Shown here: positions 1 through 64,000 of the stretch, piece after piece | How positions within the stretch are numbered: the stretch's first letter is position 1 | How the letters are laid out: each line of letters starts with the position of its first letter | DNA from: Chamaelirium japonicum | Taxonomy: Eukaryota > Streptophyta > Magnoliopsida > Liliales > Melanthiaceae | Length of the DNA stretch: 64,000 nt | Reading direction: 5' to 3' | Assembly: GCA_947650365.1 (NCBI GenBank) | Contig: CANTAL010000004.1 | Coordinates: 62,001-126,000, forward strand | The notes under the pieces: model-generated | What the model was told of the DNA's origin: nothing | The model's database searches: none | Seen by the model: only the letters and a program-made list of their open reading frames with translations | Position numbers and translations under genes: made by a program

Positions 1-172
1 CGTGCGAATGAATTAGAATGGATCGTACGAATGAGTAAGAATGGATCGTACGAATGAATTAGAATGGATTGAATTAGAATGAATCGTACGAATGAATTAG
101 AATGGCTCGTACGAATGAATTAGAATGGATCGTGCGAATGAATTAGAATGGGTCGTATGAATGAATTAGAAT

Positions 173-191
173 GGATACACGATCCAGATCC
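173..191. repeat. Switch type 3: GGATACACGATCCAGATCC
   Basis: A G-to-C strand switch with a distinct joint. The same joint occurs near 16489, 20843, 41384 and 60360. Its exact reverse complement, GGATCTGGATCGTGTATCC, occurs near 17197, 19085, 21530, 22024 and 30028. About ten copies of one non-consensus joint point to a single origin followed by copying and inversion. Confidence 0.9.
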
Positions 192-539
192 ATTCTAATT
201 CATTCACACAATCTATTCTAATTCATTCGTAGGATCCATTCTAATTCATTACTACGATCCATTCTAATTCATTCATACGATCCATTCTAATTCATTCGTA
301 CGATCCATTCTAATTCATTCGCACGATCCATTCTAATTCATTCATACGATCCATTCTAATTCATTCGTATGTATCCATTCGAATTCATTCATACGATCCA
401 TTCTAATTCTACGATCCATTCTTACTCATTCGTATTATCCATTTTAATTCATTCACACGAATGTATCAACTCTAATTCATTCGTATGATCCATTTTAATG
501 CATTCGCACGAATGTATCCATTCTAATTCATTCGTACGA

Positions 540-3350
540 TCCATTCTAATTCATTCGTACGACCCATTCTAATTCATTCGTACAATCTATTCTAATTCAT
601 TAGTACGATCCATTCTAATTTATTCGAACAATCCATTCTAATTCATTCATACGATCCATTCTAATTCATTCGCACGAATGTATCCATTCTAATTCATTCA
701 TACGATCCATTCTAATTCATTCGTACAATCCATTCTAATTCATTCGCACGATCCATTCGCATTTACTCAAACGATCCATTCTAATTCATTCATATGATCC
801 ATTCTAATTCATTCGCACGAATGTATTCATTCTAATTCATTCGTACGATCCATTCTAATTCATTTGTACGAATGTATCCACTCTAATTCATTCATACGAT
901 CCATTCTAATTCATTCGCACGAATGTATCCATTCCAATTCATTCGTACGATCCATTCTAATTCATTCGCACAATCTATTCTAATTCATTCGTACGATCAA
1001 TTCTAATTCATTCGTAGGATCCATTCTAATTCATTACTACGATCCATTCTAATTCATTCGCACGATCCATTCTTACTCATTCGTACGATCCATTCTAATT
1101 CATTCATACAATCCATTCTAATTCATTCATATGATCCATTCTAATTCATTCGCACGATCCATTCTAATTCTTTCGCACGAATGTATCCATTCTAATTTAT
1201 TTGTACGACCCATTCTAATTCATTCGCACGATCCATTCTAATTCATTCGTACGATCCATTCTAATTCATTCGTACGATTCATTCTAATTCAATCCATTCT
1301 AATTCATTCGTACGATCCATTCTTACTCATTCGTACGATCGATTCTAATTCATTCATACGATCCATTCTAATTCATTCGTACGATCTATTCTATTTAATT
1401 CGTACAATCCATTCTTACTTAATCGTATGATCCATTCTAATCCATTCGCACAATCTAGTCTAATTCATTCGTACGATCCATTCTAATTCTTTCGCACGAA
1501 TGTATCCATTCTAATTCATTCGTACGATCCATTCTAATTCATTCGTACGATCTATATTCTAATTCATTCGCACGATCCATTCTAAATTCATTCGTACGAT
1601 CCATTCTAATTCATTCGCATGATCCATTCTAATTCCTTCGTACGATCCATTTTAATTCATTCGCACAATCTATTCTAATTCATTCGCACAATCTATTCTA
1701 ATTCATTCGTACGATCAATTCTAATTCATTAGCATTATCCATTCTAATTCATTCGTACGATCTATTCTAATTCATTCGTACGATCTATTCTATTTCATTC
1801 ATACGATCCATTCTAATTCATTAATACGATCCATTCTAATTCATTCGCACGATCCATTCTAATTCATTCACATTCATACAATCCACTCTAATTCATTCGC
1901 ATGAATGTATCCATTCTAATTCATTCGTATGAGCCATTCTAATTCATTCGCACGAATGTATCCATTCTAATTCATTCGTACGATCCATTCTAATTCATTC
2001 GTACGATCCATTCTAATTCATTCGTACAATCCATTCTAATTCATTCGTACGATCCATTCTAATTTATTCGTACAATCCATTCTAATTCATTCATACGATC
2101 CATTCTAATTCATTCGCACGAATGTATCCATTCTAATTCATTCGTACGATCCATTCTAATTCATTCGTACAATCCATTCTAATTCATTCGCACGATCCAT
2201 TTGCATTCAATCAAACGATCCATTCTAATTCATTCATATGATCCATTCTAATTCATTCGCACGAATGTATTCATTCTAATTCATTCGTACGATCCATTCT
2301 AATTCATTTGTACGAATGTATCCACTCTAATTCATTCATACGATCCATTCTAATTCATTCGCACGAATGTATCCATTCCAATTCATTCGTACGATCCATT
2401 CTAATTCATTCGCACAATCTATTCAAATTCATTCGTACGATCAATTCTAATTCATTCGTAGGATCCATTCTAATTCATTACTACGATCCATTCTAATTCA
2501 TTCGCACGATCCATTCTTACTCATTCGTACGATCCATTCTAATTCATTCATACGATCCATTCTAATTCATTCATATGATCCATTCTAATTCATTCGCACA
2601 ATCCATTCTAATTCTTTCGCACGAATGTATCCATTCTAATTCATTTGTACGACCCATTCTAATTCATTCGCACGATCCATTCTAATTCATTCGTACGATC
2701 CATTCTAATTCATTCGTACGATTCATTCTAATTCAATCCATTCTAATTCATTCGTACGATCCATTCTTACTCATTCGTACGATCGATTCTAATTCATTCA
2801 TACGATCCATTCTAATTCATTTGTACAATCTATTCTATTTAGTTCGTACAATCCATTCTTACTCAATCGTATGATCCATTCTAATCCATTCGCACAATCT
2901 AGTCTAATTCATTCGTACGATCTATTCTAATTCTTTCGCACGATGTATCCATTCTAATTCATTCGTACGATCCATTCTAATTCATTCGTACGATCCATTC
3001 TAATTCATTCGTACGATCTATATTCTAATTCATTCGCACGATCCATTCTAATTCATTCGTACGATCCATTCTAATTCATTCGCATGATCCATTCTAATTC
3101 CTTCGTACGATCCATTTTAATTCATTCGCACAATCTATTCTAATTCATTCGCACAATCTATTCTAATTCATTCGTACGATCAATTCTAATTCATTAGCAT
3201 GATCCATTCTAATTCATTCGTACGATCTATTCTAATTCATTCGTACGATCTATTCTATTTCATTCATACGATCCATTCTAATTCATTAATACGATCCATT
3301 CTAATTCATTCGCACGATCCATTCTAATTCATTCACATTCATACAATCCA
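540..3350. repeat. 1.44-kb tandem duplication of satellite
   Basis: Two direct copies, roughly 540-1895 and 1985-3350. Diagnostic variants line up at one offset: AATTTATTCG at 617 and 2061, CGCACGATCCATT with a CATTTGC/CATTCGC-type core at 745 and 2189, ATTCC at 931 and 2375 (all 1444 bp apart). Toward the right the offset becomes 1465 (ATTCACATTC at 1866 and 3331), consistent with about one extra unit in copy 2. It is a higher-order unit of about 63 basic units. Confidence 0.85.
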
Positions 3351-3779
3351 TTCTAATTCATTCGCACGATCCATTCGCATTCACTCAAACGATCCATTCT
3401 AATTCATTCATATGATCCATTCTAATTCATTCGCACGAATGTATCCATTCTAATTCATTCGTACGATCCATTCTAATTCATTTGTACGAATATATCCACT
3501 CTAATTCATTCATACGATCCATTCTAATTCATTTGTACGAATGTATCCACTCTAATTCATTCGTACGAATGAATTAGAATGGATCGTATGAGTGTGAATG
3601 AATTAGAATGGATCGTACGAATGAATTAGAATGGATCGTATTAATGAATTAGAATGGATCGTATGAATGAAATAGAATAGATCGTACGAATGAATTAGAA
3701 TAGATCGTACGAATGAATTAGAATGGATCATGCTAATGAATTAGAATTGATCGTACGAATGAATTAGAATAGATTGTGC
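3151..3779. repeat. Inverted duplication flanking the 3.57-kb switch
   Basis: The C-orientation segment 3151-3346 and the G-orientation segment about 3585-3779 are near-identical reverse complements, sharing the same ordered rare variants: GATCAATTC, ATTAGCATGATCC, CTATTTCATTC, ATTAATACG and a CATTCACA(T/C)TCATAC unit. Beyond 3779 the right arm matches C-block sequence at about 740-985 or 2190-2420 rather than what precedes 3151, so it is a chimera of two parts of the 1.44-kb module. Confidence 0.8.
3551..3578. repeat. 28-bp perfect palindrome at a strand switch
   Basis: Two cores meet head-to-head across TCGTACGA: left arm TCTAATTCATTCGT, right arm ACGAATGAATTAGA. The unit linker already contains this 8-bp palindrome, so the strand change adds no foreign base. 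Confidence 0.95.
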
Positions 3780-4061
3780 GAATGAATTAGAATGGATCGT
3801 ACGAATGAATTGGAATGGATACATTCGTGCGAATGAATTAGAATGGATCGTATGAATGAATTAGAGTGGATACATTCATACAAATGAATTAGAATGGATC
3901 GTACGAATGAATTAGAATGGATACATTCGTGGGAATGAATTAGAATGGATCATATGAATGAATTAGAATGGATCGTTTGAGTGAATGCGAATGGATCGTG
4001 CGAATGAATTAGAATGGATTGTACGAATGAATTAGAATGGATCGTACGAATGAATTAGAAT

Positions 4062-4081
4062 GGATACATTCGTGCGAATCC
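4062..4081. repeat. Switch type 1: GGATACATTCGTGCGAATCC
   Basis: A G-to-C switch followed by CATTCTATTTCATTCG. The same joint with the same downstream variant is at 15553, 40448, 55906 and 57151, and at about 18155, 32575, 42790, 45353, 48770 and 60490; near-matches lie at about 47604, 54458, 60860 and 61900. It is followed in several copies by GCACGAAGGTATCC and CGTACGGTATGATTC markers, so a module of several hundred bases moves with it. Confidence 0.9.
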
Positions 4082-4806
4082 ATTCTATTTCATTCGTACT
4101 ATCCATTCTAATTCATTCGCACGATCCATTCTAATTCATTCATACGATCCATTCTAATTCATTCGTACGATCCATTCTAAATCATTCGTACGATCCATTC
4201 TAATTCATTCGCACAATCTATTCTAATTCATTCGTACGATCCATTCTAATTCATTCGCACGATCCATTCTAATTCATTCATACGATCCATTCTATTTCAT
4301 TCGTACGATCCATTCTTACTCATTCGTACGATCCATTCTAATTCATTTGCACGAAGGTATCCATTCTTATTCATTCGTACTATCCATTCTAATTCCTTCG
4401 TACGATCCATTCTAATTCCTTCGTACGATCCACTCTAATTCATTCGTACGATCCATTCTAATTCCTTCGTATGATCCATTCTAATTCATTCGTACGGTAT
4501 GATTCATTCTAATTCATTCGTACGATTCATTCTAATTCAATCCATTCTAATTCATTCGTACGATCCATTCTAATTCATTCGCACGATCTATTCTAATTCA
4601 TTCATACGATCTATTCTAATTCATTCGCACGAATGTATCCATTCTAATTCATTCGCACGATCCATTCTAATTCATTCATACAATTTATTCTAATTCTTTT
4701 GCACGAATGTATCCATTCTAATTCATTCGTACGATCCATTCTAATTCATTCGTATGATCTATTCTAATTCATTCGCATGATCCATTATAATTCATTCATA
4801 CGATCC

Positions 4807-7800
4807 ACGAATGAAATAGAATGGATTAGAATGGGTTAGAATAGATTGTGCGGATTAATTAGATTGGATCGTACGAATGAATTAGAATGAATCATACCGT
4901 ACGAATGAATTAGAATGGATCATACGAAGGAATTAGAATGGATCGTACGAATGAATTAGAATGGATCGTACGAATGAAATAGAATGGATTGTACGAATGA
5001 GATAGAATGGATCGTACAAATGAATTAGAATGGATACATTCATGCGAATGAATTAGAATGGATCATACGAATGAATTAGAATGGATTCATTCGTGCGAAT
5101 GAATTAGAATGGATCGTACGAATGAGTAAGAATGGATCGTACGAATGAATTAGAATGGATTGAATTAGAATGAATCGTACGAATGAATTAGAATGGATCG
5201 TACGAATGAATTAGAATGGATCGTACGAATGAATTAGAATGGATTGAATTAGAATGAATCGTACGAATGAATTAGAATGAATAATACCGTACGAATGAAT
5301 TAGAATGGTTAGAATGGAAAGATTCGTGCGAATGAATTTGAATGGATCGTACGAAGGAATTAGAATGGATCGTACGAAGGAATTAGAATAGATCATACGA
5401 AGAAATTAGAATGGATCGTACGAATGAATTAGAATGGATCGTATGAATGAATTAGAATGGATCGTGCGAATGAATTAAAATGGATCGTATGAATGAAATA
5501 GAATGGATCGTATGAATTAGAATGGATCGTACGAATGAAATAGAATAGATCGTACGAATGAATTAGAATAGATTGTGCGAATGGATTAGAATGGATCATA
5601 CGATTGAGTAAGAATGGATTGTACGAATGAAATAGAATAGATCGTACGAATGAATTAGAATGGATCATGCTAATGAATTAGAATTGATCGTACGAATGAA
5701 TTAGAATAGATTGTGCGAATGAATTAGAATGGATCGTACGAATGAATTGGAATGGATACATTCGTGCGAATGAATTAGAATGGATCGTATGAATGAATTA
5801 GAGTGGATACATTCGTACAAATGAATTAGAATGGATCGTACGAAGGAATTAGAATGGATCGTACGAAGGAATTAGAATGGATAGTACGAATGAATTAGAA
5901 TGGATACCTTCATGCAAATGAATTAGAATGGATCGTACGAATGAGTAAGAATGGATCGTACGAATGAAATAGAATGGATCGTATGAATGAATTAGAATGG
6001 ATCGTGCGAATGAATTAGAAAGGATCGTACGAATGAATTAGAATAGATTGTGCGAATGAATTAGAATGGATCCTACGAATGAATTAGAATGGATCGTACG
6101 AATGAATTAGAATGGATCGTACGAATGAATTAGATTGGATCGTATTAATGAATTAGAATGGATCGTACGAATGAATTAGAATAGATCGTACGAATGAATT
6201 AGAGTGGATACGAATGGATCGTACGAATGAGTAAGAATGGATCGTACGAATGAAATAGAATGGATTGTATGAATGAATTAGAATGGATCGTACGAATGAA
6301 ATAGAATAGATCGTACGAATGAATTAGAATGGATCATGCTAATGAATTAGAATGGATCGTTCGAATGAATTAGAATAGATTGTGCGAATGAATTAGAATG
6401 GATCGTACGAATGAATTAGAAAGGATAGATTGTGCGAATGAATTAGAATGGATCGTACGAATGAATTAGAATGGATGCATTCGTGCGAATGAATTAGAAT
6501 GGATCGTACGAATGAATTAGAATGGATCGTAAGAATGAATTAGAAAGGATCGTATGAATGAATTAGAATGGATCGTGCGAATGAATTAGAATGGATCGTA
6601 CGAATGAAAAAGAATGGATTCGTACGATAGTATCCATTCTAATTCATTCGTACGATCCATTCTAATTCATTCGTACAATCCATTCTAATTCATTCGCACG
6701 ATCCATTCGCATTCACTCAAACGATCCATTCTAATTCATTCATATGATCCATTCTAATTCATTCGCAGAATGTATCCATTCTAATTCATTCGTACGATCC
6801 ATTCTAATTCATTTGTACGAATATATCCACTCTAATTCATTCATACGATCCATTCTAATTCATTCGCACGAATGTATCCATTCCAATTCATTCGTACGAT
6901 CCATTCTAATTCATTCGCACAATCTATTCTAATTCATTCAAACGATCCATCCTAAGTCATTCGCACGAATGTATGCATTCTAATTCATTCGTACAATCCA
7001 TTCTATTTCATTCATACGATCCATTCTTACACATTCGTACGATCCATTCGTATCCATTCTAATTCATTCGTACGATCTATTCTAATTCCTTCGTACGATC
7101 CATTCTAATTCCTTCGTATGATCAATTCTAATTCAATCCATTCTAATTCAATCGTACGATCCATTCTAATTCATTCGTATGATCTATTCTAATTCATTCG
7201 CATGATCCATTCTAATTCCTTCGTACGATCCATTTTAATTCATTCGCACGATCCATTCTAATTCATTCATACGATCCATTCTAATTCATTCGTACGATCA
7301 ATTCTAATTTCTTCGTATGATTTATTCTAATTCCTTCGTACGATCCATTCTAATTCATTCATACGATCTATTCTAATTCTTTCGCACGAATGTATCCATT
7401 CTAATTCATTCGTACGATCCATTCTAATTCCTTCGTACGATCCATATTCTAATTCATTCGTACGATCCATTCTAATTTATTCGTACAATCCATTCTAATT
7501 CATTCGCACGAATGTATCCATTCTAATTCATTCGTACGATCCATTCTACGAATTAGAATGGATCGTATGAATGAATTAGAATGGATCGTGTGAATAAATT
7601 AGAATGGATCGTATGAATGAATTAGAATAGATTGTGCGAATGAATTAGAATGGATCGTACGAATGAATTAGAATGGATACATTCGTGCGAATGAATTAGA
7701 ATGGATCATACGAATGAATTAGAATGGATCATATGAATGAATTAGAATGGATCGTACGAATGAATTAGAATGGATACATTCATGCGAATGAATTAGAATG

Positions 7801-10529
7801 GATCATACGAATGAATTAGAATGGATTCATTCGTGCGAATGAATTAGAATGGATCGTACGAATGAGTAAGAATGGATCGTACGAATGAATTAGAATTGAT
7901 TGAATTAGAATGAATCGTACGAATGAATTAGAATGGATCGTACGAATGAAATAGAATGGATCGTATGAATAAATTAGAATGGATCGTGCGATTGAATTAG
8001 AATGGATCGTACGAATGAATTAGAATAGATTGTGCGAATGAATTAGAATGGATCGTGCGAATGAATTAGAATGGATCGTGCGAATAAATTAGAATGGATC
8101 GTATGAATGAATTAGAATAGATTGTGCGAATGAATTAGAATGGATCGTACGAATGAATTAGAATGGATACATTCGTGCGAATGAATTAGAATGGATCGTA
8201 TGAATGAATTAGAATCGATCGTACGAATGAATTAGAATGGATCATACGAATGAATTAGAATGGATCGTGCGAATGAATTATAATGGATCGTACGAATGAA
8301 ATAGAATGGATTGTACGAATGAGATAGAATGGATCGTACGAATGAATTAGAATGGATACATTCATGCGAATGAATTAGAATGGATCATACGAATGAATTA
8401 GAATGGATTCATTCGTGCGAATGAATTAGAATGGATCGTACGAATGAGTAAGAATGGATCGTGCGAATGAATTAGAATGGATCGTATTAAAGAATTAGAA
8501 TGGATCGTATGAATGAATTAGAATGGATCATACGAAGGAATTAGAATGGATCGTACGAAGGAATTAGAATGGATAGTACGAATGAATTAGAATGGATACC
8601 TTCGTGCAAATGAATTAGAATGGATCGTACGAATGAGTAAGAATGGATCGTACGAATGAATTGGAATGGATTGAATTAGAATGAATTGTACGAATGAATT
8701 AGAATGGATCGTACGAATGAATTAGAATGGATCGTACGAATGAATTAGAATGGATTGAATTAGAATGGATCGTACGATAAGAATGGATCGTACGAATGAA
8801 ATATAATAGATCGTAGGGATAAATGAATTTGGATCGTGCTAATGAATTAGAATGGATCGTACGAATGAATTAGAATAGATCGTACTAATGAATTAGAATA
8901 GATTGTGCGAATGAATTTGAATAGATCGTACGAATGAATTAGAAAGGATATATTCGTGCGAATGAATTAGAATAGATCGTATGAATGAATTAGATTGGAT
9001 CGTATTAATGAATTAGAATGGATTGTGCGAATGAATTAGAATGGATCGTACGAATGAAATAGAATGGATTGTACGAATGAGATAGAATGGATCGTACGAA
9101 TGAATTAGAATGGATACATTCATGCGAATGAATTAGAATGGATCATACGAATGAATTAGAATGGATTCATTCGTGCGAATGAATTAGAATGGATGGCACG
9201 AATTAGTAAGAATGGATCGTACGAATGAATTAGAATGGATTGAATTAGAATGAATCGTACAAATGAATTAGAATGGATCGTACGAATGAATTAGAATGGA
9301 TCGTACGAATGAATTAGAATGGATTGAATTAGAATGAATCGTACGAATGAATTAGAATGAATCATACCGTACGAATGAATTAGAATGGATCATACGAAGG
9401 AATTAGAATGGATCGTACGAATGAATTAGAATGGATCGTACGAATGAATTAGAATGGATCGTACGAAGGAATTAGAATGGATCGTACGAAGGAATTAGAA
9501 TGGATAGTACGAATGAATTAGAATGGATACCTTCGTGCAAATGAATTAGAATGGATCGTACGAATGAGTAAGAATGGATCGTACGAATGTCCATTCTAAT
9601 TCATTCGTACTATTCATTCTAATTCCTTCGTACGATCCATTCTAATTCCTTCGTACGATCCATTCTAATTCATTCGTATGATCCATTCTAATTCATTCGT
9701 ACAATCCATTCTAATTCATTCACATGATCCATTCTATTTCATTCGTACGAAAGATTCTAATTCATTCATACGATCCATTCTAATTCATTCGCATGATCCG
9801 TTCTAATTCATTCGTACGATCGATTCTAATTCATTCATACGATCCATTCTAATTCATTCGCACGAATGTATCCATTCTAATTCATTCGTACGATCCATTC
9901 TAATTCATTCGCACAATCTATTCTAATTCATTCATACGATCCATTCTAATTTATTCGCACGATCCATTCTAATTCATTCATACGATCCATTCTAATTCAT
10001 TCATATGATCCATTCTAATTCATTCGCACGATCCATTCTTACACATTCGTACGATCCATTCTAATTCATTCGCACAATCCATTCTAATTCATTAATACGA
10101 TCCATTCTAATTCATTCGCACGATCCATTCTAATTCATTCACACTCATACGATCCATTCTAATTCATTCGCATGAATGTATCCTTTCTAATTCATTCGTA
10201 CGATCCATTCTAATTCATTCGCATAATCTATTCTAATTCATTCGAACGATCCATTCTAATTCATTCGTACGATCCATTCTAATTCATTCGTACGATCCAT
10301 TCTAATTCATTCGCGCGATCCATTCTAATTCATTCGAACGATCCATTCTAATTCATTAGCACGATCCATTCTAATTCATTCGTACGATCCATTCTAATTC
10401 ATTTATACGATCCAATCTAAGTCATTCATACGATCCATTCTAATTCTTTCGCACGAATGTATCCATTCTAATTCATTCGTACGATCCATTCTAATTCTTT
10501 AGCACGAAAAAACACGATCCACTCACATA
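4807..10529. repeat. Satellite strand map 4.8-10.5 kb
   Basis: Blocks: G 4807-6620, C 6630-7550, G 7551-9590, C 9590-10525. The G blocks hold repeated modules with GAATGAGATAG units, GGATTCATTCGTGCG inserts and GTACGATAAGAATGG short units (near 8770). A slightly degenerate stretch with an A-run occurs near 10501-10530 at the C-to-G switch. No gene seen. Confidence 0.85.
5429..5668. repeat. Recurrent module with an 18-bp short unit
   Basis: A marker module containing a unit that lacks 5 bases (GATCGTATGAATTAGAATGG), then AAATAGAATGG, GTGCGAATGGATTAG, ATACGATTGAGTAAG and ATGCTAATGAATTAG variants. It recurs at about 14983-15222, 34546-34760 (cut short by different flanking variants, just before the LTR), 39878-40117 and 59820-60030, with a partial version near 60693-60890. 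The variants remove the usual TAA stop on the minus strand, so the same 79-codon frame appears at three of the sites. I read it as a repeat marker, not a gene. Confidence 0.8.
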
Positions 10530-10661
10530 CGAATAAATTAGAATGAATTAGAATGGATTGTGTGAATGAATTAGAATGGATCGTATGAATGAATTAGAAT
10601 GGATCGTGCGAATGATTTAGAATATGGATCGTATGAAGGAATTAGAATGGATCGTACGAAT

Positions 10662-10677
10662 GAATTCGAATGTATCC
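10662..10677. repeat. Switch type 4: GAATTCGAATGTATCC
   Basis: A G-to-C switch through an EcoRI-type GAATTC palindrome. Also at 17023, 21357 and 30875, and as GAATTTGAATGTATCC at 41895. Each is followed by TTTCTA in place of ATTCTA, a shared marker. A related joint, CATTCGAATTCATTCG, lies near 16667, 19875, 20999, 22905 and 41560. Confidence 0.88.
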
Positions 10678-10999
10678 TTTCTAATTCATTCGTACGATCC
10701 ATTCTAATTCCTTCGTACGATCCATTCTAATTCATTCGTACGATCCATTCTAATTCATTCGCACGATCCATTCTAATTCATTCGTACGATCCATTCTATT
10801 TCATTCATACGATCCATTTTAATTCATTCATACGATCTATTCTAATTCTTTCGCACGAATGTATCCATTCTAATTCATTCGTACGATCCATTCTAATTCA
10901 TTCGCACGATCCATTCTAATTCATGCATACGATCCAATCTAATTCATTCATACGATCCATTCTAATTCATTCGCACGAATGTATCCATTCTAATTCATT

Positions 11000-11015
11000 C
11001 TTACATGTATGAATG
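11000..11015. repeat. Switch type 6: joint with TACATGTA palindrome
   Basis: A C-to-G switch through ACATGT. Similar joints are near 31215, 42412, 54260 and 56820 (CATGTATGAATG or CATGTACGAATG). Confidence 0.85.
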
Positions 11016-11323
11016 AATTAGAATGGATTGTACGAATGAATTAGATTGGATCGTGCGAATGAATTAGAATGGATCGTACGAATGAATTAGAATGGATCGA
11101 ACGAATGAATTAGAATGGATACATTCGTAAAAAAAAATTAGAATGGATTGTATGAATGAATTAGAATGGATCGTGCGAATGAATTAGAATGGATCGTACG
11201 AATGAATTAGAATGGATACATTCGTGCGAAAAAATTAGAATAGATCGTATGAATGAATTAGAATGGATCGTGCGAATGAATTAGAATGGATCGTACGAAT
11301 GAAATAGAATGGATTGTACGAAT

Positions 11324-12400
11324 GAGATAGAATGGATCGTACGAATGAATTAGAATGGATACATTCATGCGAATGAATTAGAATGGATCATACGAATGAA
11401 TTAGAATGGATTCATTTGTGCGAATGAATTAGAATGGATCGTACGAATGAGTAAGAATGGATCGTACGAATGAATTAGAATGGATTGAATTAGAATGAAT
11501 CGTACAAATGAATTAGAATAGATCGTACGAATGAATTAGAATGGATCGTACGAATAAATTAGAATGGATCGTGCGAATGAATTAGAATGGATCGTGCGAA
11601 TGAATTAGAATGGATCATATGAATGAATTAGAATTAGAATGGATCGTACGAATGAGTAAGAATGGATCTTACGAATGAAATAGAATGGATCGTACGTATC
11701 AATTAGAATGGATACATTCATGGGAATGAATTAGAATGGATTGTACGAAGGAATTAGAATGGATCGTACGAAGAAATTAGAATGGATCGTACGAATGAAT
11801 TAGAATGGATACATTCGTACGAATGAAATAGAATAGATTGTACGAATGAGATAGAATGGATCGTACGAATGAATTAGAATGGATACATTCATGCGAATGA
11901 ATTAGAATGGATCATAGGAATGAATTAGAATGGATTCATTCGTGCGAATGAATTAGAATGGATCATACGAATGAGTAAGAATGGATCGTACGAATGAGTT
12001 AGAATGGATTGAATTAGAATGAATCGTACGAATGAATTAGAATGGATCGTACGAATGAATTATAATGGATCGTACGAATGAATTAGAATAGATCGTGCGA
12101 ATGAATTAGAATGGATCGTGCGAATGAATTAGAATGGATCATATGAATGAATTAGAATTAGAGTGGATCGTACGAATGAGTAAGAATGGATCATACGATT
12201 GAAATAGAATGGATCGTACGTATCAATTAGAATTGATACATTCATGGGAATGAATTAGAATAGATCGTACGAAGGAATTAGAACGGATCGTACGAAGGAA
12301 TTAGAATGGATCGTACGAATGAATTAGAATGGATACATTCGTACGAACGAAATAGAATGGATTGTACGAATGAGATAGAATGGATCGTACGAATGAATTA
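11324..12400. repeat. 524-bp tandem higher-order module
   Basis: The rare unit variant GAGATAG occurs at 11324, 11848 and 12372, exactly 524 bp apart each time. Between these the same ordered series appears twice: GGATTCATT(T/C)GTGCG, the doubled GAATTAGAATTAGA near 11624 and 12150, ACGTATCAATTAGAA near 11695 and 12217, and CATTCATGGGAATG. 524 is not a multiple of 23 because several units carry inserts or are truncated. Confidence 0.85.
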
Positions 12401-20000: not shown

Positions 20001-20615
20001 TTCATTCACACGATCCATTCTAATTCATTCATACAATCCATTCTAATTCTTTTGCATGAATGTATCCATTCTAATTCATTCGTACGATCCATTCTAATTC
20101 ATTCGTACGATCCATTCTAATTCATTCGCACAATCCATTCTAATTCATTCACACTCATACGATCCATTCTAATTCATTCGCACGAATGTATCCGTTTTAA
20201 TTCATTCGTACGATCCATTCTAATTCATTCGCACAATCTATTCTAATTCATTCGAACGATCCATTCTAAGTCATTCGTACGATCCATTCTAATACATTCG
20301 TACGATCCATTCTAATTCATTCGCACGATCCATTCTATTTCATTCGTACGATCCATTCTAATTCATTTGCATGAATGTATCCATTCCAATTCATTCGTAC
20401 GATCCATTCTAATTCATTCGCACAATCTATTCTAATACATTCGTACGATCAATTCTAATTCATTCGCACGTATCCATTCTAATTCATTCATACGAACCAT
20501 TCTATTTCATTCGTACGATCCATTCTTACTCATTCGTACGATCCATTCTAATTCATTCGTACGATCCATTCTAATTCATTCGTACGATCCATTCTAATTC
20601 ATTCGCACAATCTAT
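16213..20615. repeat. Long higher-order module, copy 1 (about 4.4 kb)
   Basis: Starts at the rare ACGTTCCATTC unit (16213) and ends where that unit recurs (20616). 16213-17285 matches 20616-21620, and about 18650-20600 matches about 21630-23640. The intervening part (about 17285-18650) is absent from copy 2, so the pair differ by a 1.4-kb gain or loss. The ACGTTCCATTC unit is also at 29128 and 41131. Confidence 0.8.
16497..16552. repeat. About 50-bp C block between two fixed switches
   Basis: A very short C-orientation block bounded on the left by switch type 3 and on the right by TTCGTAGGATCGTGCG. The whole block recurs near 20848-20906, 41390-41446 and 60366-60424, in each case followed by a GCGAATGAGGTAG or GCGAATGAGTTA unit. 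It is a compact marker for a moving module. Confidence 0.85.
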
Positions 20616-23600: not shown

Positions 23601-23640
23601 CTAATTCATTCGTACGATCCATTCTAATTCATTCGTACGA
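20616..23640. repeat. Long higher-order module, copy 2 (about 3.0 kb)
   Basis: The tandem partner of 16213-20615, lacking about 1.4 kb of it. Shared markers include the ACACGATCCAG switch, the ATTCTAATTAGAAT switch, two GGATCTGGATCGTG switches (near 21530 and 22025), the short C block with TTCATGCAATCC (about 22795-22839), the ATTCTAAGTCATTCG unit (about 23285) and CGCACGTATCC (about 23498). Confidence 0.8.
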
Positions 23641-27838: not shown

Positions 27839-28107
27839 CCATTCTAATTCATTCGCACAATCCATTCGCGCGAATGAATTAGAATGGATCGTGCGAATAA
27901 ATTAGAATGGATCGTATGAATGAATTAGAATAGATTGTGCGAATGAATTAGAATGGATCGTACGAATGAATTAGAATGGATAGATTTGTGCGAATGAATT
28001 AGAATGGATCGTATGAATGAATTAGAATCGATCGTACGAATGAATTAGAATGGATCATGCGAATGAATTAGAATGGATTGAATTAGAATGAATCGTACGA
28101 ATGAGTA

Positions 28108-35260: not shown

Positions 35261-35345
35261 AGAGAGATCAGTGTTTACAGTGATACTCGGCCTGTCGAGA
35301 TCACTCCAACATAAGTGTTAGTGAATTCGGGTTGCTCCCTATAGC

Positions 35346-51100: not shown

Positions 51101-54100
51101 GAATGAATTAGAATGGATCGTGCGAATAAATTTGAATGGATCGTATGAAAGAATTAGAATAGATTGTGCGAATGAATTAGAATGGATCGTACGAATGAAT
51201 TAGAATGGATACATTCGTGCGAATGAATTAGAATGGATACATTCGTGCGAATGAATTAGAATGGATCGTATGAATGAATTAGAATTGATCGTACGAATGA
51301 ATTAGAATGGATCATGCGAATGAATTAGAATGGATTGAATTAGAATGAATCGTACGAATGAGTAAGAATGGATCCATTCTATTTCATTCGTACGATCCAT
51401 TCTAATTCATTCATACGATCCTTTCTAATTCCTTCGTACGAATGAATTAGAATGGATTGCATGAATGAATTAGAATAGATCGTACAAATGAATTAGAATG
51501 GATCGTATGAAATGTATCCATTCTAATTCATTCGTACGATCCATTCTAATTCATTCGTATGATCCATTCTTACTCATTCGTACGATCCAATCTAATTCAT
51601 TCATACGATCCATTCTACGATCCATTCTAATTCATTCGTACGTTCCATTCTAATTCATTCATACGATCCATTCAAATTCGTTAATACGATCCATTCTAAT
51701 TCATTCGCACGATCCATTCTAATTCATTCATACGATCCATTCTAATTCATTCGTACGATCCATTCTAATTCATTCGTACGATCCATTCTAATTCATTCGC
51801 ACGAATGAATCCATTCTAATTCATTCGTATGATCCATTCTAATTCATTCGCATGAATGTATCCATTCTAATTCATTCGCACGATCTATTCTAATTCATTC
51901 GCACGATCCATTCTAATTCATTCATACAATCCATTCTAATTCTTTTGCACGAATGTATCCATTCTAATTCATTCGTACGATCCATTCTAATTCATTCGTA
52001 CGATCCATTCTAATTCATTCGCACAATCCATTCTAATTCATTCACACTCATACGATCCATTCTAATTCATTCGCACGAATGTATCCATTCTAATTCATTC
52101 GTGCGATCCATTCTAATTCATTCGCACAATCTATTCTAATTCATTCGAACGATCCATTCTAAGTCATTCGTACGATCCATTCTAATTCATTCGTACGATC
52201 CATTCTAATTCATTCGCACGATCCATTCTATTTCATTCGTACGATCCATTCTAATTCATTCGCACGATCCATTCTAATTCATTCATACAATCCATTCTAA
52301 TTCTTTTGCACGATCGATTCTAATTCATTCGCACAATCTATTGTAATTCATTCGTAGGATCCATTCTAATTCATTACTATGATCCATTCTAATTCATTCG
52401 TATGTATCCATTCTAATTCATTCGCACGATCCATTCTAATTCATTTGTACGAATGAATTAGAATGGATCGTACGAATGAATTAGAACGGATCGTACGAAT
52501 GAGTAAGAATGGATCGTACGAATGAAATAGAATGGATCGTATGAATGAATTAGAATGGATACGTGCGAATGAATTAGAATTGATCGTACGAATGAATTAG
52601 AATAGATTGTGCGAATGAATTAGAATGGATTGTACGAATGAATTGGAATGGATACATTCGTGCGAATGAATTAGAATGGATCGTACGAATGAAATAGAAT
52701 GAATCATGCGAATGAATTAGAATGGATCGTACGAATGAATTAGAATGGATCGTACGAATGAATTAGAATAGATTATGCGAATGAATTAGAATGGATCGCA
52801 CGAATGAATTAGAACGGATACATTCGTGCGAATGAATTAGAATGGATCGTATGAGTGTGAATGAATTAGAATGGATTGTGCGAATGAATTAGAGTGGATA
52901 CATTCGTACGAATGAATTAGAATAGATTGTGCGAATGAATTAGAATGGATCGTACGAATGAAATAGAATGGATCGTTTGAATGAATTAGAATGGATCGTA
53001 CTTATGAATTAGAATGGGTGATACGAATGAAATAGAATGGATCGTACGAAGGAATTAGAAAGGATCGTATGAATGAATTAGAATGGATTGTACGAATGAA
53101 TTAGAATGGATCGTACGAATGAATTAGAATAGATTATGCGAATGAATTAGAATGGGTCGTACGAATGAATTAGAATGGATCGTACTAATGAATTAGAATG
53201 GATTGTACGAATGAATTAGAATGGATCGTACGAATGAATTAGAATGGATTCATTCGTGCGTATGAATTAGAATGGATCGTACGAATGAATTAGAATGGAT
53301 TCATTCGTGCGAATGAATTAGAATGGATCGTACGAATGAGTAAGAATGGATCGTATGATTGAATTAGAATGGATTGAATTAGAATAAATCGTACGAATGA
53401 ATTAGAATGGATCATACGAAGGAATTAGAATGGATCGTACGAATGAATTAGAATGGATCGTGCGAATGAAATAGAATGGAATGTATGAATGAATTAGAAT
53501 GGATCGTGCGAATGAATTAGAATGGATCGTACGAATGAATTAGAATGGATCGTATGAATGAATTAGAATGGATCGTGCGAATAAATTAGAATGGATCGTA
53601 TGCATGAATTAGAATGGATCGTGCGAATGAATTAGACTGGATCGTACGAATGAATTAGAATGGATCGTATGAATGAATTTGAATGGATCGTGCGAATGAA
53701 TTAGAATGGATCGTACGAATGAATTAGAATAGATTGTGCGAATGAATTAGAATGGATCATACGAATGAATTAGAATGGATCGTACGAATGAATAAGAATG
53801 GATCGTATGAATGAATTAGAATGGATCATGCGAATGAATTAGAATGGATCGTACGAATGAAATAGAATGGATTCGCACGAATGTATCCATTCTAATTCAT
53901 TCGTACGATCCATTCTAATTCATTCGTACAATCCATTCTAATTCATTCGCACGATCCATTCGCATTCACTCAAACGATCCATTCTAATTCATTCATATGA
54001 TCCATTCTAATTCATTCGCACGAATGTATCCATTCTAATTCATTCGTACAATCCATTATAAATCATTCGTACGATCCATTCTTACTCATTCGTACGATCC

Positions 54101-54264
54101 ATTCTAATTCATTCGTTCGATCCATTCTAATTCATTCGTACGATCCATTCTAATTCATTCGCACGATCCATTCTAATTCATGCATACGATCCAATCTAAT
54201 TCATTCATACGATCTATTCTAATTCATTCGCACGAATGTATCCATTCTAATTCATTCGTACATG
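48187..54264. repeat. Satellite strand map 48.2-54.3 kb
   Basis: Blocks: G 48187-48780, C to 50307, G to 50915, C to 51003, G to 51372, C to 51441, G to 51512, C to 52449, G to 53875, C to 54264. The section 49.5-52.2 kb is a diverged copy of 25.7-28.9 kb. No gene seen. Confidence 0.82.
49545..52250. repeat. Segmental duplication, copy D (partner 25.7-28.9 kb)
   Basis: Same markers in the same order as 25738-28900 with only one 719-bp module. A third, partial version appears at about 63.1-64.0 kb: TTGAATTAGAATGAATCG units, the GAATGGATCCATTC switch at 63537, GATTGCATGACTG and the CTACGATCC short unit. Confidence 0.8.
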
Positions 54265-57200
54265 TATGAATGAATTAGAATGGATCGTACGAATGAATTA
54301 GAGTTGATACATTCATGCGAATGAATTAGAATGGATCGTACGAATGAATTAGATTGGATCGTATGAATGAATTATAATGGATCATGCGAATGAATTAGAA
54401 TAGATCATACGAATGAATTAGAATGGATCGTACGAATGAATTAGAATGGATACATTTGTGCGAATCCATTCTATTTCATTCGTACGATCCATTCTAACTC
54501 ATTCGCACGATCCATTCTAATTCATTCATACGATCCATTCTAATTCATTCGCACGATCCATTCTAATTCATTCATACTATCCATTCTAATTCATTCGCAC
54601 GAATGTATCAATGGATCGTACGAATGAATTAGAATGGATTGAATTAGAATGAATCGTACGAATGAATTAGAATGGATCGTGCGAATGAATTAGAATGAAT
54701 TGTACGAATGAATTAGAATGGATCGTACGAATGAATTAGAATGGATCGTGCGAATGAATTAGAATGGATCGTACAAATGAATTAGAAAGGATACATTCGA
54801 ATTTATTCGTACGATATATTCTAATTCATTCGCACAATCTATTCTAATTCATTCGTACGATCCATTCTAATTAGAATGGATACATTCGTGCGAATGAATT
54901 AGAATGGATCGTATGAATGAATTAGAATCGATCGTACGAATGAATTAGAATGGATCATGCGAATGAATTAGAATGGATCGTGCGAGTAAATTAGAATGGA
55001 TCGTATGAATGAATTAGAATGGATCGTATGAATGAAATAGAATGGATCGTACGAATGAATTAGAATGGATCGTGTGAATGAATTAGAATGGATCGTAGGA
55101 ATGAGTAAGAATGGATCGTATGAATGAAATAGAATGGATCGTATGAATAAATTAGAATGGATCGTGCGAATGAATTAGAATGGATCATACGAATGAATTA
55201 GACTGGATCGTACGAATGAATTAGAATGGATCGTACGAATGAATTAGAATGGATCGTACGAATGAATTAGAATGGATACATTCGTGCGAATGAATTAGAA
55301 TGGATCATACGAATGAATTAGAGTTGATACATTCGTGTGAATGAATTAAAATGGATAATACGAATGAGTAAGAATGGATCGTAGAATTAGAATGGATCGT
55401 ATGAATGAATTAGAATGGATACATACAAATGAATAAGAATGGATCGTATGAATGAATTAGAATGGATCGTGCGAATGAATTAGAATGAATCGTACGAATG
55501 AATTAGAATGGATCGTACGAATGAATTAGAATGGATCGTACGAATGAATTAGAATGGATCGTACGAATGAATTAGAATAGATCGTACGAATGAATTAGAA
55601 TAGATCGTACGAAGGAATTAGAATGGATCGTACGAAGGAATTAGAATGGATAGTACGAATGAAGTAGAATGGATCGTGCGAATGAATTAGAATGGATCGT
55701 ACGAATGAGTAAGAATGGATCGTACGAATGAATTAGAATGGATCGTATGAATGAAATAGAATGGATACATTCGTGCGAATGAATTAGAATGGATCATATG
55801 AATGAATTAGAATGGATCGTTTGAGTGAATGCGAATGGATCGTGCGAATGAATTAGAATGGATTGTACGAATGAATTAGAATGGATCGTACGAATGAATT
55901 AGAATGGATACATTCGTGCGAATCCATTCTATTTCATTCGTACGATCCATTCTAATTCATTCGCACGATCCATTCTAATTCATTCATACGATCCATTCTA
56001 ATTCATTTGTACGATCCATTCTAATTGATTCGTACGATCCATTCTAATTCATTCGCACAATCTATTCTAATTCATTCGTACGATCCATTCTAATTCATTC
56101 GCACGATCTATTCTAATTCATTCATACGATCCATTCTAATTCATTAATACGATCCAATCTAATTCATTCATACGATCCATTCTAATTCATTCGTACGATC
56201 CATTCTAATTCATTCGCACGATCCATTCTAATTCATTCGCACGAATGTATCCATTCTAATTCATTTGTACAATCCATTCTAATTCATTCGTACGATCCAT
56301 TCTAATTCATTCGTACGATCCATTCTAATTCATTCGCACGATCCATTCTAATTCATTCGCATGATCCATTCTAATTCATTCGTACGATCGATTCTAATTC
56401 ATTCATACGATCCATTCTAATTCATTCGCACGAATGTATCCATTCTTATTCATTCGTACGATCCATTCTAATTCATTCGCACAATCTATTCTAATTCATT
56501 CATACGATCCATTCTAATTTATTCGCACGATCCATTCTAATTCCTTCGTATGATCCATTCTAATTCATTCGTACGGTATGATTCATTCTAATTCATTCGT
56601 AAGATTCATTCTAATTCAATCCATTCTAATTCATTCGTACGATCCATTCTAATTCATTCGTACGATCCATTCTAATTCATTCGTACGATTCATTCTAATT
56701 CAATCCATTCTAATTCATTCGTACGATCCATTCTTACTCATTCGTACGATCCATTCTAATTCATTTGCACGAATAAATCCATTCTAATTCATTCGTAAGA
56801 TCCATTCTAATTCATTCATACATGTACGAATGAATTAGAATGGATACATTCGTGCGAATGAATTATAATGGATCGTATGAATGAATTAGATTGGATCGTA
56901 TGCATGAATTAGAATGGATCGTGCGAATGAATTAGAATGGATCGTACGAATGAGTAAGAATGGATCGTACGAATGAATTAGAATGGATCGTACGAATGAA
57001 TTGGAATGGATACATTTGTGCGAATGAATTAGAATGGATCATATGAATGAATTAGAATGGATCGTTTGAGTGAATACGAATGGATCTTGCGAATTAATTA
57101 GAATGGATTGTACGAATGAATTAGAATGGATCGTACGAATGAATTAGAATGGATACATTCGTGCGAATCCATTCTATTTCATTCGTACGATCCATTCTAA

Positions 57201-59242
57201 TTCATTCGCACGATCCATTCTAATTCATTCGTACGATCCATTCTAATTCATTCGTACGATCCATTCTAATTCATTCGCACAATCTATTCTAATTCATTCG
57301 TACGATCCATACTAATTCATTCGCACGATCCATTCTAATTCATTCATACGATCCATTCTATTTCATTCGTACGATCCATACTTACTCATTCATACGATCC
57401 ATTCTAATTCATTTGCACGAAGGTATCCATTCTAATTCATTCGTACTATCCATTCTAATTCCTTCGTACGATCCATTCTAATTCCTTCGTACGATCCATT
57501 CTAATTCATTCGTACGATCCATTCTAATTCATTCGTACGATCCATTCTAATTCCTTCGTATGATCCATTCTAATTCATTCGTACGGTATGATTCATTCTA
57601 ATTCATTCGTACGATTCATTCTAATTCAATCCATTCTTATTCATTCATACGATCCATTCTATTTCATTCGTACAATCCATTCTAATTCTTTCGCATGATC
57701 CATTCGCATTCACTCAAACGATCCATTCTAATTCATTCATACGATCCATTCTATTTCATTTGCACGAAGGTATCCATTCTAATTCATTCGTACTATCCAT
57801 TCTAATTCCTTCGTACGATCCATTCTAATTCATTCGCACGATCCATTCTAATTCATTCGTACGATCCATTCTAATTCATTCGTACGATCTATACTAATTC
57901 ATTCGCACGATCCATTCTAATTCACTAATACGATTCAATCTAATTCATTCGCACGAATATATCCTTTCTAATTCATTCGTACGATCCAAATTCATTTATC
58001 CGTACGATCTATTCTATTTCATTCATATGATCCATTCGTATCGTACGATCCATTCTAATTCAATCCATTCTAATTCATTCGTACGATCCATTCTAATTCA
58101 TTCGTACGATTCATTCTAATTCAATCTATTCTAATTCATTCGTACGATCCATTCTATTTCATTCATACGATCCATTCTTACTCATTCGTACTATCCATTC
58201 GTATCCATTCTAATTCATTCGTATGATCTATTCTAATTCATTCGTACGATCCATTCTAATTCCTTCGTACGATCCATTCTAATTCATTCGTACGATCCAT
58301 TCTAATTCATTCGCACGATCCATTCTAATTCATTCTTACGATCCATTCTATTTCATTCATACGATCCATTCTAATTCATTCATACGATTTATTCTAATTC
58401 TTTCGTACGAATGTATCCATTCTAATTCATTCGTACGATCCATTCTAATTCATTCGCACGATCCATTCTAATTCATTCATATAATCCATTCTAATTCTTT
58501 TGCACGAATGTATCCATTCTAATTCATTCATTCGATCCATTCTAATTCATTCGTACGATCCATTCTAATTCATTCGCACGATCCATTCTAATTCATGCAT
58601 ACGATCCAATCTAATTCATTCATACGATCCATTCTAATTCAATCGCACGAATGTATCCATTCTAATTCATTCGTATGATCCATTCTAATTCATTCGTACG
58701 ATCTATTCTAATTCATTCATACGATCCATTCTAATTTATTCACACGATCCATTCTAATTCCTTCGTATGATCCATTCTAATTCATTCGTACGGTATGATT
58801 CATTCTAATTCATTCGTACGATTCATTCTAATTCAATCCATTCTAATTCATTCGTACGATCTATTCTAATTCATTCGTACGATTCATTCTAATTCATTCG
58901 TACGATTCATTCTAATTCAATCCATTCTAATTCATTCGTACGATCCATTCTTACTCATTCGTACGATCCATTCTAATTCATTCGCACGAATGAATCTATT
59001 CTAATTCATTCGTATGATCCATTCTAATTCATTCGCATGAATTATCCATTCTAAGTCATTCGTACGATCCATTCTATCTCATTCGTACAATCCATTCTAT
59101 TTCATTCGTACGATCCATTCTAATTCATTCGCACGATCCATTCTAATTCATTCACATGATCCATTCTAATTCATTCGTCCGATCGATTCTAATTCATTCA
59201 TACGATCCATTCTAATTCATTCGCACGAATGTATCCATTCTA
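54265..59242. repeat. Satellite strand map 54.3-59.2 kb
   Basis: Blocks: G 54265-54468, C to 54608, G to 54797, C to 54870, G to 55922, C to 56822, G to 57167, C 57169-59237. The last C block, about 2.1 kb, is one of the longest uninterrupted blocks outside the first 3.5 kb. No gene seen. Confidence 0.82.
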
Positions 59243-62200
59243 AATGAATTAGAATGGATCGTACGAATGAGTAAGAATGGATCGTGCGAATGAATTAGAA
59301 TGGATCATATGAATGAATTAGAATGGATCGTATGAATGAATTAGAATGGATCGTGCGAATAAATTAGAATGGATCGTATGAATGAATTAGAATCGATCGT
59401 ACGAATGAATTAGAATGGATCATGCGAATGAATTAGAATGGATCGTGCGAATGAATTAGAATGGATCGTACGAATGAAATAGAATGGGTTGTACGAATGA
59501 GATAGAATGGATCGTACGAATGAATTAGAATGGATACATTCATGCGAATGAATTAGAATGGATCATACGAATGAATTAGAATGGATTCATTCGTGCGAAT
59601 GAATTAGAATGGATCGTACGAATGAGTAAGAATGGATCGTACGAATGAATTAGAATGGATTGAATTAGAATGAATCGTACGAATGAATTAGAATGGATCG
59701 TACGAATGAATTAGAATGGATCGTACGAAGGAATTAGAATGGATCGTACGAAGGAATTGGAATGGATAGTACGAATGAATTAGAATGGATAGAACGAATG
59801 AATTAGAATGGATCGTGCGAATGAAGTAAAATGGATCGTATGAATGAAATAGAATGGATCGTATGAATTAGAATGGATCGTACGAATGAAATAGAATGGA
59901 TCGTACGAATGAATTAGAATAGATTGTGCGAATGGATTAGAATGGATCATACGATTGAGTAAGAATGGATTGTACGAATGAAATAGAATAGATCGTACGA
60001 ATGAATTAGAATGGATCTTGCTAATGAATTAGAATTGATCGTACGAATGAATTAGAATAGATTGTGCGAATGAATTAGAATGGATCGTACGAATGAATTG
60101 GAATGGATACATTCGTGCGAATGAATTAGAATGGATCGTATGAATTAGAATGGATATTACGCTTGAGTAAGAATGGGTTGTACGAATGAAATAGAATAGA
60201 TCATACGAATGAATTAGAATGGATAATGCTAATGAATTAGAATTGATCGTACGAATGAGTAAGAATGGATCGTACGAATGAAATAGAATGGATCGTATGA
60301 ATGAATTAGAATGGATCGTACGAATGAATTAGAATGGGTCGTACGAATGAATTAGAATGGATACACGATCCAGATCCATTCTAATTCATTCGCACAATCT
60401 ATTCTAATTCATTCGTAGGATCGTGCGAATGAATTAGAATGGATCGTGCGAATGAGTTAGAATGGATCGTACGAATGAATTAGAATGGATACATTCGTGC
60501 GAATCCATTCTATTTCATTCGTACGATCCATTCTAATTCATTCGCACGATCCATTCTAACTCATTAGTATGAATGAATTAGAATGGATCGTGCGAATGAA
60601 TTAGAATGGATCGTACGAATGAATTAGAATGGATCGTATGAATGAATTAGAATGGATCGTGCGAATAAATTAGAATAGATCGTATGAATGAATTAGAATG
60701 GATCGCACGAATTAGAATGGATCGTACGAATGAAATAGAATGGATTGTATGAATGAATTAGAATAGATTGTGCGAATGGATTAGATTGGATCATACGATT
60801 GAGTAAGAATGGATTGTACGAATTAAATAGAATAGATCGTACGAATGAATTAGAATGGATCATGCGAATCCATTCTATTTCATTCGTACGATCCATTCTA
60901 ATTCATTACTACGATCCATTCTAATTCATTCGTACGATCCATTCTAATTCATTCGTACGATCCATTCTAATTCATTCGCACGATCCATTCTAATTCATTC
61001 ATACGATCCATTCTAATTCATTCATACGATCCATTCTAATTCATTCGTACGATCCATTCTAATTCATTCGTACGATTCATTCTAATTCAATCCATTCTAA
61101 TTCATTCGTACGATCCATTCTAATTCCTTCGTATCCATTCTAATTAGAATGGATCGTACGAATGAATTAGAATGGATCGTACGAATGAATTGGAATGGAT
61201 ACATTCGTGCGAATGAATTAGAATGGATCGTATCAATGAATTAGATTGGATCGTATTAATGAATTAGAATGGATCGTGCGAATGAATTAGAATGGATCGT
61301 ACGAATGAATTAGAATGGATAGATTCGTGCGAATGAATTTGAATGGATCATACGAAGGAATTAGAATGGATCGTACGAATGAACTAGAATGGATCGTACG
61401 AATGAATTAGAATGGATCGTACGAAGGAATTAGAATGGATCGTACGAAGGAATTAGAATGGATAGTACGAATGAATTAGAATGGATACCTTCGTGCAAAT
61501 GAATTAGAATGGATCGTACGATTGAGTAAGAATGGATCATACGAATGAAATAGAATGGATCGTATGAATGAATTAGAATGGATCGTGCGAATGAATTAGA
61601 ATGGATCATGCGAATGAATTAGAATGTATCGTGCGAATGAATTAGAATGGATCGTACGAATGAATTAGAATGGATCGTACGAATGAATTAGAATGGATTG
61701 AATTAGAATGGATCGTACGATAAGAATGGATCGTACGAAGGAATTAGAATGGATCGTATGAAGGAATTAGAATGGATAGTACGAATGAATTAGAATGGAT
61801 ACCTTCGTGCAAATGAATTAGAATGGATCGTACGAATGAGTAAGAATGGATCGTACGAATGAATTAGAATGGATCGTACGAATGAATTAGAATGGATAGA
61901 TTCATGCGAATCCATTCTATTTCATTCGTACGATCCATTCTAATTCATTCGCACGATCCATTCTAATTCATTTATACGATCCATTCTTATCGTACGATCC
62001 ATTCTAATTCAATCCATTCTAATTCATTCGTACGATCCATTCTAATTCATTCGTACGATCCATTCTAATTCCTTCGTACGATCCATTCTAATTCCTTCGT
62101 ACGATCCATTCTTATCGTACGATCCATTCTAATTCAATCCATTCTAATTCATTCGTACGATCCATTCTAATTCATTCGTACGATTCATTCTAATTCAATC

Positions 62201-64000
62201 CATTCTAATTCATTCGTACGATCCATTCCAATTCATTCGTACAATCTATTCTAATTCATTCGTATGATCCATTCTAATTCAATCCATTCTAATTCATTCG
62301 TACGATCCATTCTAATTCATTCGTACGATCCATTCTTACTCATTCGTACGATCCATTCTAATTCATTCGTACGATCCATTCTAATTCATTCGTACGATCC
62401 ATTCTAATTCATTCGCACAATCTATTCTAATTCATTCGTACGATCCATTCTAATTCATTCGCACGATCCATTCTAATTCATTCATACGATCCATTCGATT
62501 TCATTCGTACGATCCATTCTAATTCTTTTGCACGAATGTATCGAACGAATGAATTAGAATGGATCGTACGAATGAATTAGAATGGATCGAACGAATGAAT
62601 TAGAATGGATTCGCACGAATGTATCCATTCTAATTCATTCGTACGATCCATTCTAATTCATTCGTATAGTCCATTCTAATTCATTCGCACGATCCATTCG
62701 CATTCACTCAAACGATCCATTCTAATTCATTCATATGATCCATTCTAATTCATTCGTACGATCCATTCTAATTCATTCGTACGATCCATTCAAATTCATT
62801 CGCACAATCTATTCTAATTCATTCGTACGATCCATTAGAATGGATCGTACAAATGAGTAAGAATGGATCGTGCGAATGAATTAGAATGGATCATATGAAT
62901 GAATTAGAATGGATCGTATGAATAAATTAGAAAGGATCGTGCGAATAAATTAGAATGGATCGTACGAATGAATTAGAATGGATCGTACGAATGAATTAGA
63001 ATGGATCGTACGAATGAATTAGAATGGATTCATTCGGGCGAATGAATTAGAATGGATCGTACGAATTAGTAAGAATGGATCGTACGAATGGATTAGAATG
63101 GATTGAATTAGAATGAATCGTACGAATGAATTAGAATGGATCGTACGAATGAATTAGAATGGATCGTACAAATGAATTAGAATGGATTGAATTAGAATGA
63201 ATCGTACGAATGAATTAGAATGAATCATACCGTACGAATGAATTAGAATGGATCATACGAAGGAATTAGAATAGATCGTGCGAATAAATTAGAATGGATC
63301 ATATGAATGAATTAGAATAGATTGTGCGAATGGATTAGAATGGATCATATGATTGAGTAAGAATGGATTGTACGAATGAAATAGAATAGATCGTACGAAT
63401 GAATTAGAATGGATCATGCGAATAAATTAGAATGGATCGTATGAATGAATTAGAATCGATCGTACGAATGAATTAGAATGGATCATGCGAATGAATTAGA
63501 ATGGATTGAATTAGAATGAATCGTACGAATGAGTAGGAATGGATCCATTCTATTTCATTCGTACGATCCATTCTAATTCATTCATACGATCCTTTCTAAT
63601 TCCTTCGTACGAATTAATTAGACTGGATTGCATGACTGAATTAGAATAGATCGTACGAATGAATTAGAATGGATCGTACGAAATGTATCCATTCTACTTC
63701 ATTCGTACGATCCATTCTAATTCATTCGTATGATCCATTCTTACTCATTCGTACGATCCAATCTAATTCATTCATACGATCCATTCTACGATCCATTCTA
63801 ATTCATTCGTACGTTCCATTCTAATTCATTCGTACGATCCATTCAAATTCATTAATACGATCCATTCTAATTCATTCGCCCGATCCATTCTAATTCATTC
63901 ATACGATCCATTCTAATTCATTCGTACGATCCATTCTAATTCATTCGTACGATCCATTCTAATTCATTCGCACGAATGAATCCATTCTAATTCATTCGTA
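59243..64000. repeat. Satellite strand map 59.2-64.0 kb
   Basis: Blocks: G 59243-60366, C to 60419, G to 60506, C to 60570, G to 60866, C to 61143, G to 61908, C to 62541, G to 62613, C to 62835, G to 63543, C to 63611, G to 63682, C to the window edge. The end (63.1-64.0 kb) resembles 50.3-51.8 kb, including the GGATCC switch. No gene seen. Confidence 0.82.
61133..61154. repeat. Switch type 5: 22-bp palindrome with TCTAATTAGA centre
   Basis: A C-to-G switch in which two cores meet at their central TAATTA. Left arm ATCCATTCTAA, right arm TTAGAATGGAT. The same 22-bp palindrome is at 54860-54881, and a 14-bp version (ATTCTAATTAGAAT) at 16845, 21179 and 41717, the last three inside copied modules. 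Confidence 0.92.

Follow-up and report, generated by a model that had tools for sequence, protein, structure and literature searches.

The window considered here is a stretch of 64,000 nucleotides (G000:C16:62001-126000) from a 1.52 Gb genome assembly deposited as Chamaelirium japonicum. It is occupied by a short-monomer satellite in strand-mosaic blocks, which the strand map described below places at 1..34796 and 35536..64000, to the left and right of a long terminal repeat (LTR) insert. Judged by monomer spacing, motif content and assembly statistics, this is the Chio1/Chio2 centromere satellite of the holocentric plant Chionographis japonica. The published satellite consists of 23-bp Chio1 and 28-bp Chio2 monomers that are 5 bp and one substitution apart (PMC10264360); in the window the dominant monomer spacing is 23 bp and the second is 28 bp, and the 28-bp variant differs from the 23-bp form by the addition of ATGTA and by having mostly CGCACG where CGTACG is commonest. 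The 9-bp motif TTCGTACGA is present in 463 forward and 513 reverse-complement copies. The twelve contigs C1-C12, each of 70-137 Mb, total 1,090.67 Mb and C8 measures 81,106,678 bp, to be set beside the 12 scaffolds, 1,090.73 Mb and N50 of 81.11 Mb of the published C. japonica genome, which was built from HiFi reads (PMC10264360). That account also describes megabase-scale units with higher-order repeats, and no structural difference between the window and Chio1/Chio2 as described there was found. Six 15-mers of the monomer gave no match in the text of 5.39 million papers.

In C. japonica, Chio1 and Chio2 are bound by and enriched in CENH3, and 100 centromere units have been mapped across all 12 chromosomes (PMC10264360). 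By analogy with these published data for the species, the satellite of the window would itself carry CENH3. A subtelomeric satellite, which was our first reading of the match positions, was dropped in view of the distribution of the 100 units over all 12 chromosomes. As to the scaffold ends themselves, C3 starts in telomere repeats and C8, C9 and C12 start inside satellite, so some ends may be broken within centromere units. Mixed orientation is likewise already published for Chio, whose arrays are described as a mixture of forward and reverse monomers (PMC10264360) and, in a later paper, as being of ‘frequently alternating orientation’ (PMC12722358).

The strand map was made by scoring all rotations of ATCCATTCTAATTCATTCGTACG (‘F’) and of its reverse complement (‘R’) at each position, followed by a three-state Viterbi path. 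The path divides the window into 126 segments, namely 125 oriented blocks and one non-satellite insert, with 123 direct switches (62 R-to-F and 61 F-to-R); F blocks cover 30.3 kb and R blocks 32.9 kb, and block length runs from 47 to 3,384 bp with a median of 308. The number of oriented blocks is 125 at each switch penalty of 20, 30, 40, 60, 80 and 120, falling to 109 at a penalty of 200. The best match on either strand is at least 18/23 at 86% of window positions, as against 0% in one mononucleotide shuffle scored with the forward unit only. The original prediction, made from the letters of the window, had described a plant satellite of mosaic architecture with about 124 orientation blocks, some of only 45-60 bp, and the map bears out all three statements; what escaped it is that this is a known holocentric centromere satellite, that many of the switches are copied, and that the two types of switch differ on C16. 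The mosaic extends beyond the window, being found in all C16 samples across C16:1-606000 with retrotransposon-type interruptions, and a further C16 sample at 996-1006 kb is satellite-free.

The switches do not represent 123 independent events, because they fall into only 59 lineages when a lineage is taken as a similarity group at 92% over 340 bp, which is not a phylogeny (21, 42 and 79 lineages at 88, 90 and 95%). Long pieces of the mosaic recur elsewhere. The opening 2 kb of the window recur at full or nearly full length, with 94-99% identity, at 22 or more other places and in both orientations, 40 candidates having been scored. The segment at 15665..21000, with 20 mapped switches, is matched over its whole span on C62 (95%) and over nearly its whole span on C3 (95%, 19 switches) and C246 (91%), these being the three candidates scored; the switch places were mapped in the window, and the other contigs are known by sequence match. 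At about C16:31516-58253 (L012-L014) a 9,800-bp higher-order repeat of mixed orientation is present three times in tandem, and the copies are 99.95-100% identical in the stretches compared. Since the 123 switches of the window fall into 59 lineages, and given these tandem copies, many switches are inherited rather than made singly, having been copied in long pieces, both between contigs and within the 9.8-kb repeat.

It is necessary to ask whether the switches exist in the chromosome at all, since satellites are hard to assemble, the 9.8-kb repeat with its near-identical copies could in principle be over-assembled, and at a small number of switches the symmetric arms are rather long, up to 369 bp. 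An assembly or foldback-read artefact had been named with the original prediction as its possible refutation. Foldback reads should yield near-identical arms, and these are not seen. Among 281 switches in 186 kb of C16, 157 have both arms of at least 184 bp; arm identity at these junctions averages about 84.5% (range 79-90%), and the similarity of a switch's own arm ranks at only 0.51 (82 F-to-R) and 0.39 (75 R-to-F) among random arms. Moreover, one R-to-F switch, at 180/181 of the window (160..205, with the core GGATACACGATCCAGATCC termed class C below), lies at the identical place in 8/8 loci cut out from six contigs (C16, C246, C14, C2, C41 and C36, the window included), one of them aligned after reverse complementing, and the surrounding substitutions differ between loci. 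HiFi reads also underlie the published assembly (PMC10264360). By these indirect tests the switches appear to be real, and an artefact as their source is highly improbable.

Predicted folding is strong across the switches tried and weak within blocks. A 600-nt RNA across one switch has a predicted energy of -339 kcal/mol, where its shuffles average -135, compared with -78.5 against -52 kcal/mol for 600 nt inside one block; in DNA folding of 120-nt windows, junctions gave z of -5.9 to -13.5 in 4/4 cases and in-block windows about -1.7 in 2/2. The fold-back potential claimed for the locus is thus supported in silico for these stretches. The stronger claim that every adjacent pair of blocks can fold back is a fair one, with the qualification that the arms are alike only to the degree given above for the 157 junctions. 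At the scale of the monomer, CATTCGCACGAATG of the 28-bp variant is a small hairpin itself, and possible hairpins leading to breaks have been suggested for TTCGTACGA (PMC12722358).

Such folding invites the view that mixed orientation is selected, with alternating arms forming large hairpins or cruciforms that aid CENH3 loading or the folding of the unit. A precedent for it might be sought in the macro-dyad symmetries of TmSat1/TmSat2 in Tribolium madens, where a megabase-scale satellite has inverted subarrays with conserved inversion sites, for which a structural role has been proposed (PMC13081366). That system belongs to an insect, and its subarrays measure several kb, lie mostly two to an array and tend to symmetry (PMC13081366), whereas the blocks of the window are short and asymmetric and number more than 100 in its 64 kb. 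The similar subarray lengths found on both sides of a Tribolium switch are not seen over the 186 kb of C16, where the lengths of adjacent blocks are uncorrelated at R-to-F switches (Spearman -0.04, 141 pairs) and give 0.09 at F-to-R switches (140 pairs); in the window alone the values are 0.08 (R-to-F, 60 pairs) and 0.50 (F-to-R, 61 pairs). The modest likeness of the arms also speaks against selection. A comparison closer to hand is the Chama satellite of Chamaelirium luteum, in the sister genus, which is CENH3-bound and has TTCGTACGA in common with Chio; it differs from the window in having a 60-bp monomer and large, consistently oriented CENH3-positive arrays (PMC12722358). Because those arrays are uniform, mixed orientation is not needed for a large CENH3 array, and a selected orientation seems unlikely to us.

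The joints themselves were surveyed in about 306 kb on seven contigs, 246 kb of that on C16, comprising the 186 kb already mentioned, six more C16 samples and six samples from C3, C8, C9, C12, C26 and C246. The 421 junctions obtained exclude L001-L008, which are copies of one place, as well as any junction less than 230 bp from the end of a piece or adjoining a non-satellite segment. A joint was scored as having a scar if CGAATG|TATCC, or the apparent 6-bp-deleted form GGATACACGATCC, lay within 32 bp of it. Palindrome joints were assigned by lattice phase, as an earlier fuzzy class, tolerating at most 2 errors in 12 bases, took in nearly all F-to-R joints and was dropped. The first loose pattern for the R-to-F class A matched ordinary 28-bp monomers. 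In the alignment of the classes, motif matches were used when they passed a switch check, as did 96/393 for class A, 36/36 for class B and 24/36 for class C, the rest being dropped.

On C16 the two directions of switch have different joints. F-to-R switches lie at the phase of the TTCGTACGA palindrome in 29/96 lineages, where about 4 are expected (p 6e-17, a value that is too small because lineages are similarity groups and not a phylogeny), and R-to-F switches do so in 2/53. Conversely, the scar is present at R-to-F switches in 40/53 lineages and at F-to-R switches in 18/96, the latter being close to its background at in-block positions (931/4,822). An example of the first type is the F-to-R switch at 3540..3590, centred on the palindrome as CATTCGTACGAATG with a predicted hairpin; the second is exemplified by the R-to-F switch of class A at 4040..4090, where junction alignment gives the core GGATACATTCG / CGAATGTATCC with the Chio2-type scar. 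Pooled over the seven contigs, there are 64 R-to-F and 114 F-to-R lineages, occupying 6.6 and 14.2 effective phase classes respectively, a difference that 0/2,000 label shuffles equalled. The palindrome phase is used by 31/114 F-to-R and 4/64 R-to-F lineages and the scar by 44/64 R-to-F and 25/114 F-to-R lineages, and both pooled contrasts run the same way whether lineages are drawn at 88, 90, 92 or 95%. On average the lattices overlap at a joint by 2.3 bp (F-to-R) or 2.0 bp (R-to-F), or by 1.4 and 1.8 bp once the palindrome class is removed; joining the consensus at random gives 0.77 bp.

The R-to-F scar contains the five-base insertion that marks the 28-bp variant, Chio2, and the letters of the three main R-to-F classes, A, B and C, can be read as descending from one founder. 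As far as the published descriptions go, the closest parallel to this pattern is in Tribolium madens, with its conserved inversion sites (PMC13081366). The joints were also considered as reciprocal products of exchange between Chio2 and Chio1, an idea that found no support, as the scars have mostly CGCACG and the palindrome centres mostly do not.

A different origin for the joints would be foldback-type mobile cassettes, each with an R-to-F core at its centre and linked to the next through F-to-R ends of variable form. The C16 joints have something of this character, with few R-to-F cores and many F-to-R cores, and the class consensus is best conserved in the 100 bp or so that flank the R-to-F core on each side. 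Fold-back segments in a plant satellite are reportedly known from the maize knob repeat TR-1, spoken of as ‘fold-back DNA / megatransposons’, which is unlike Chio in belonging to the knobs and in its far longer monomer. Against such cassettes stand several negative results: hairpin cassettes of equal arm length find no support over 186 kb, the arms have no extra similarity, and there is no sharp common outer boundary within 600 bp of the R-to-F cores. In addition, the authors of the Chio study saw no resemblance of the satellite to transposable elements in their annotation (PMC10264360). Cassettes of this kind are accordingly improbable.

The reading that we favour, and to which we would give a probability of roughly 0.7 as a whole, is that of a megabase-scale Chio unit in which switches formed at hairpin sites, with two joint patterns on C16, and were then copied in blocks. 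What has been observed directly is the strand map, the existence of copies and, on C16, the two junction patterns; the process behind them would run as follows. The window would form part of a C. japonica centromere unit of megabase scale, built of Chio1 and Chio2 monomers carrying CENH3 nucleosomes, in which strand switches were made at hairpin-prone places of the monomer, presumably through repair of hairpin-induced breaks, with the joints arising through microhomology. On C16 the self-complementary TTCGTACGA core is the favoured place of F-to-R joints, and most R-to-F joints have in common the one scar with the Chio2 insertion, as if from one old joint, which would be a single founder. The switches would then have been block-copied, inside the unit through unequal exchange and from unit to unit through conversion or duplication; amplification and between-unit exchange are also discussed by the authors for the Chio satellite itself (PMC10264360, PMC12722358). 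Mixed orientation would on this account be mainly a by-product and not a signal.

Several results weigh against this reading. Recent fold-back duplication at each switch, which was tried as a candidate, was not seen, the arms at the 157 junctions being no more similar to each other than random pairs are. The similarity lineages may count the old copies of one founder repeatedly. Of the 31 F-to-R palindrome centres, 12 have CGTACG and 7 have CGCACG or CGTGCG, and most are without the Chio2 C, so that a simple reciprocal origin of the two kinds of joint is not supported. The six samples from other contigs, where numbers are small and sampling uneven, do not repeat the contrast: the scar is present in 4/11 R-to-F and 7/18 F-to-R lineages (before grouping, 16/26 against 12/28, p 0.19), and F-to-R joints lie at the palindrome phase in 2/28 cases (2/18 lineages), which is chance level. 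R-to-F joints have the scar in 0/4 cases on C8, 0/3 on C12 and 1/3 on C26. A junction rule holding throughout the genome was thus discarded, and the pattern may be local to C16, as one lineage of units.

The other contigs are themselves divided. R-to-F joints with the scar amount to 5/5 on C9, 6/6 on C3 and 4/5 on C246, so that by sample they number 15/16 in L050, L053 and L054 (C9, C246 and C3) and 1/10 in L049, L051 and L052 (C8, C12 and C26), a difference hinting at different lineages of centromere unit. A bolder, two-sided rule would have F-to-R switches arise repeatedly at the TTCGTACGA palindrome and R-to-F switches descend from one founder joint that is also the five-base insertion of Chio2. 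This rule fits C16, and other contigs may represent other lineages with other founders, but it is unlikely. Were it true, Chio2 would be the fossil or hinge of an inversion process that scrambles some centromere units, while the sister genus meanwhile kept uniform arrays.

The flip-point pattern of C16 may be new: the main texts of the two Chio papers never use the word ‘junction’, and use ‘breakpoint’ a single time with a different meaning (PMC10264360, PMC12722358). On this contig the motif for which those authors raised the possibility of hairpins and breaks is a preferred place of F-to-R switching, and R-to-F switching is linked to Chio2. How centromere units spread in Chionographis is a question that the authors left open and to which the junction data are relevant.

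The one non-satellite insert of the window, at 34797..35535, is a solo LTR of 739 bp (TGTGGG...CCCACA) flanked by the 5-bp repeat GAATT and probably lying on the + strand, to judge from a TATAAATA-like stretch; it contains a 43-bp G+C-rich tandem repeat at 34830-35070. It is 80% identical over 740 bp to LTR stretches of an insert at C16:13430-26570, which at about 13 kb is one of the retrotransposon-type interruptions of C16, another being of 5.3 kb in the 396-406 kb sample. An insert at L010:4419-6887 and L011:1648-3942 has a reading frame of 822 aa for a retrotransposon gag, in which protease matches stay below threshold, and, on the opposite strand, a 764-aa frame with a sub-threshold match to PF04195.

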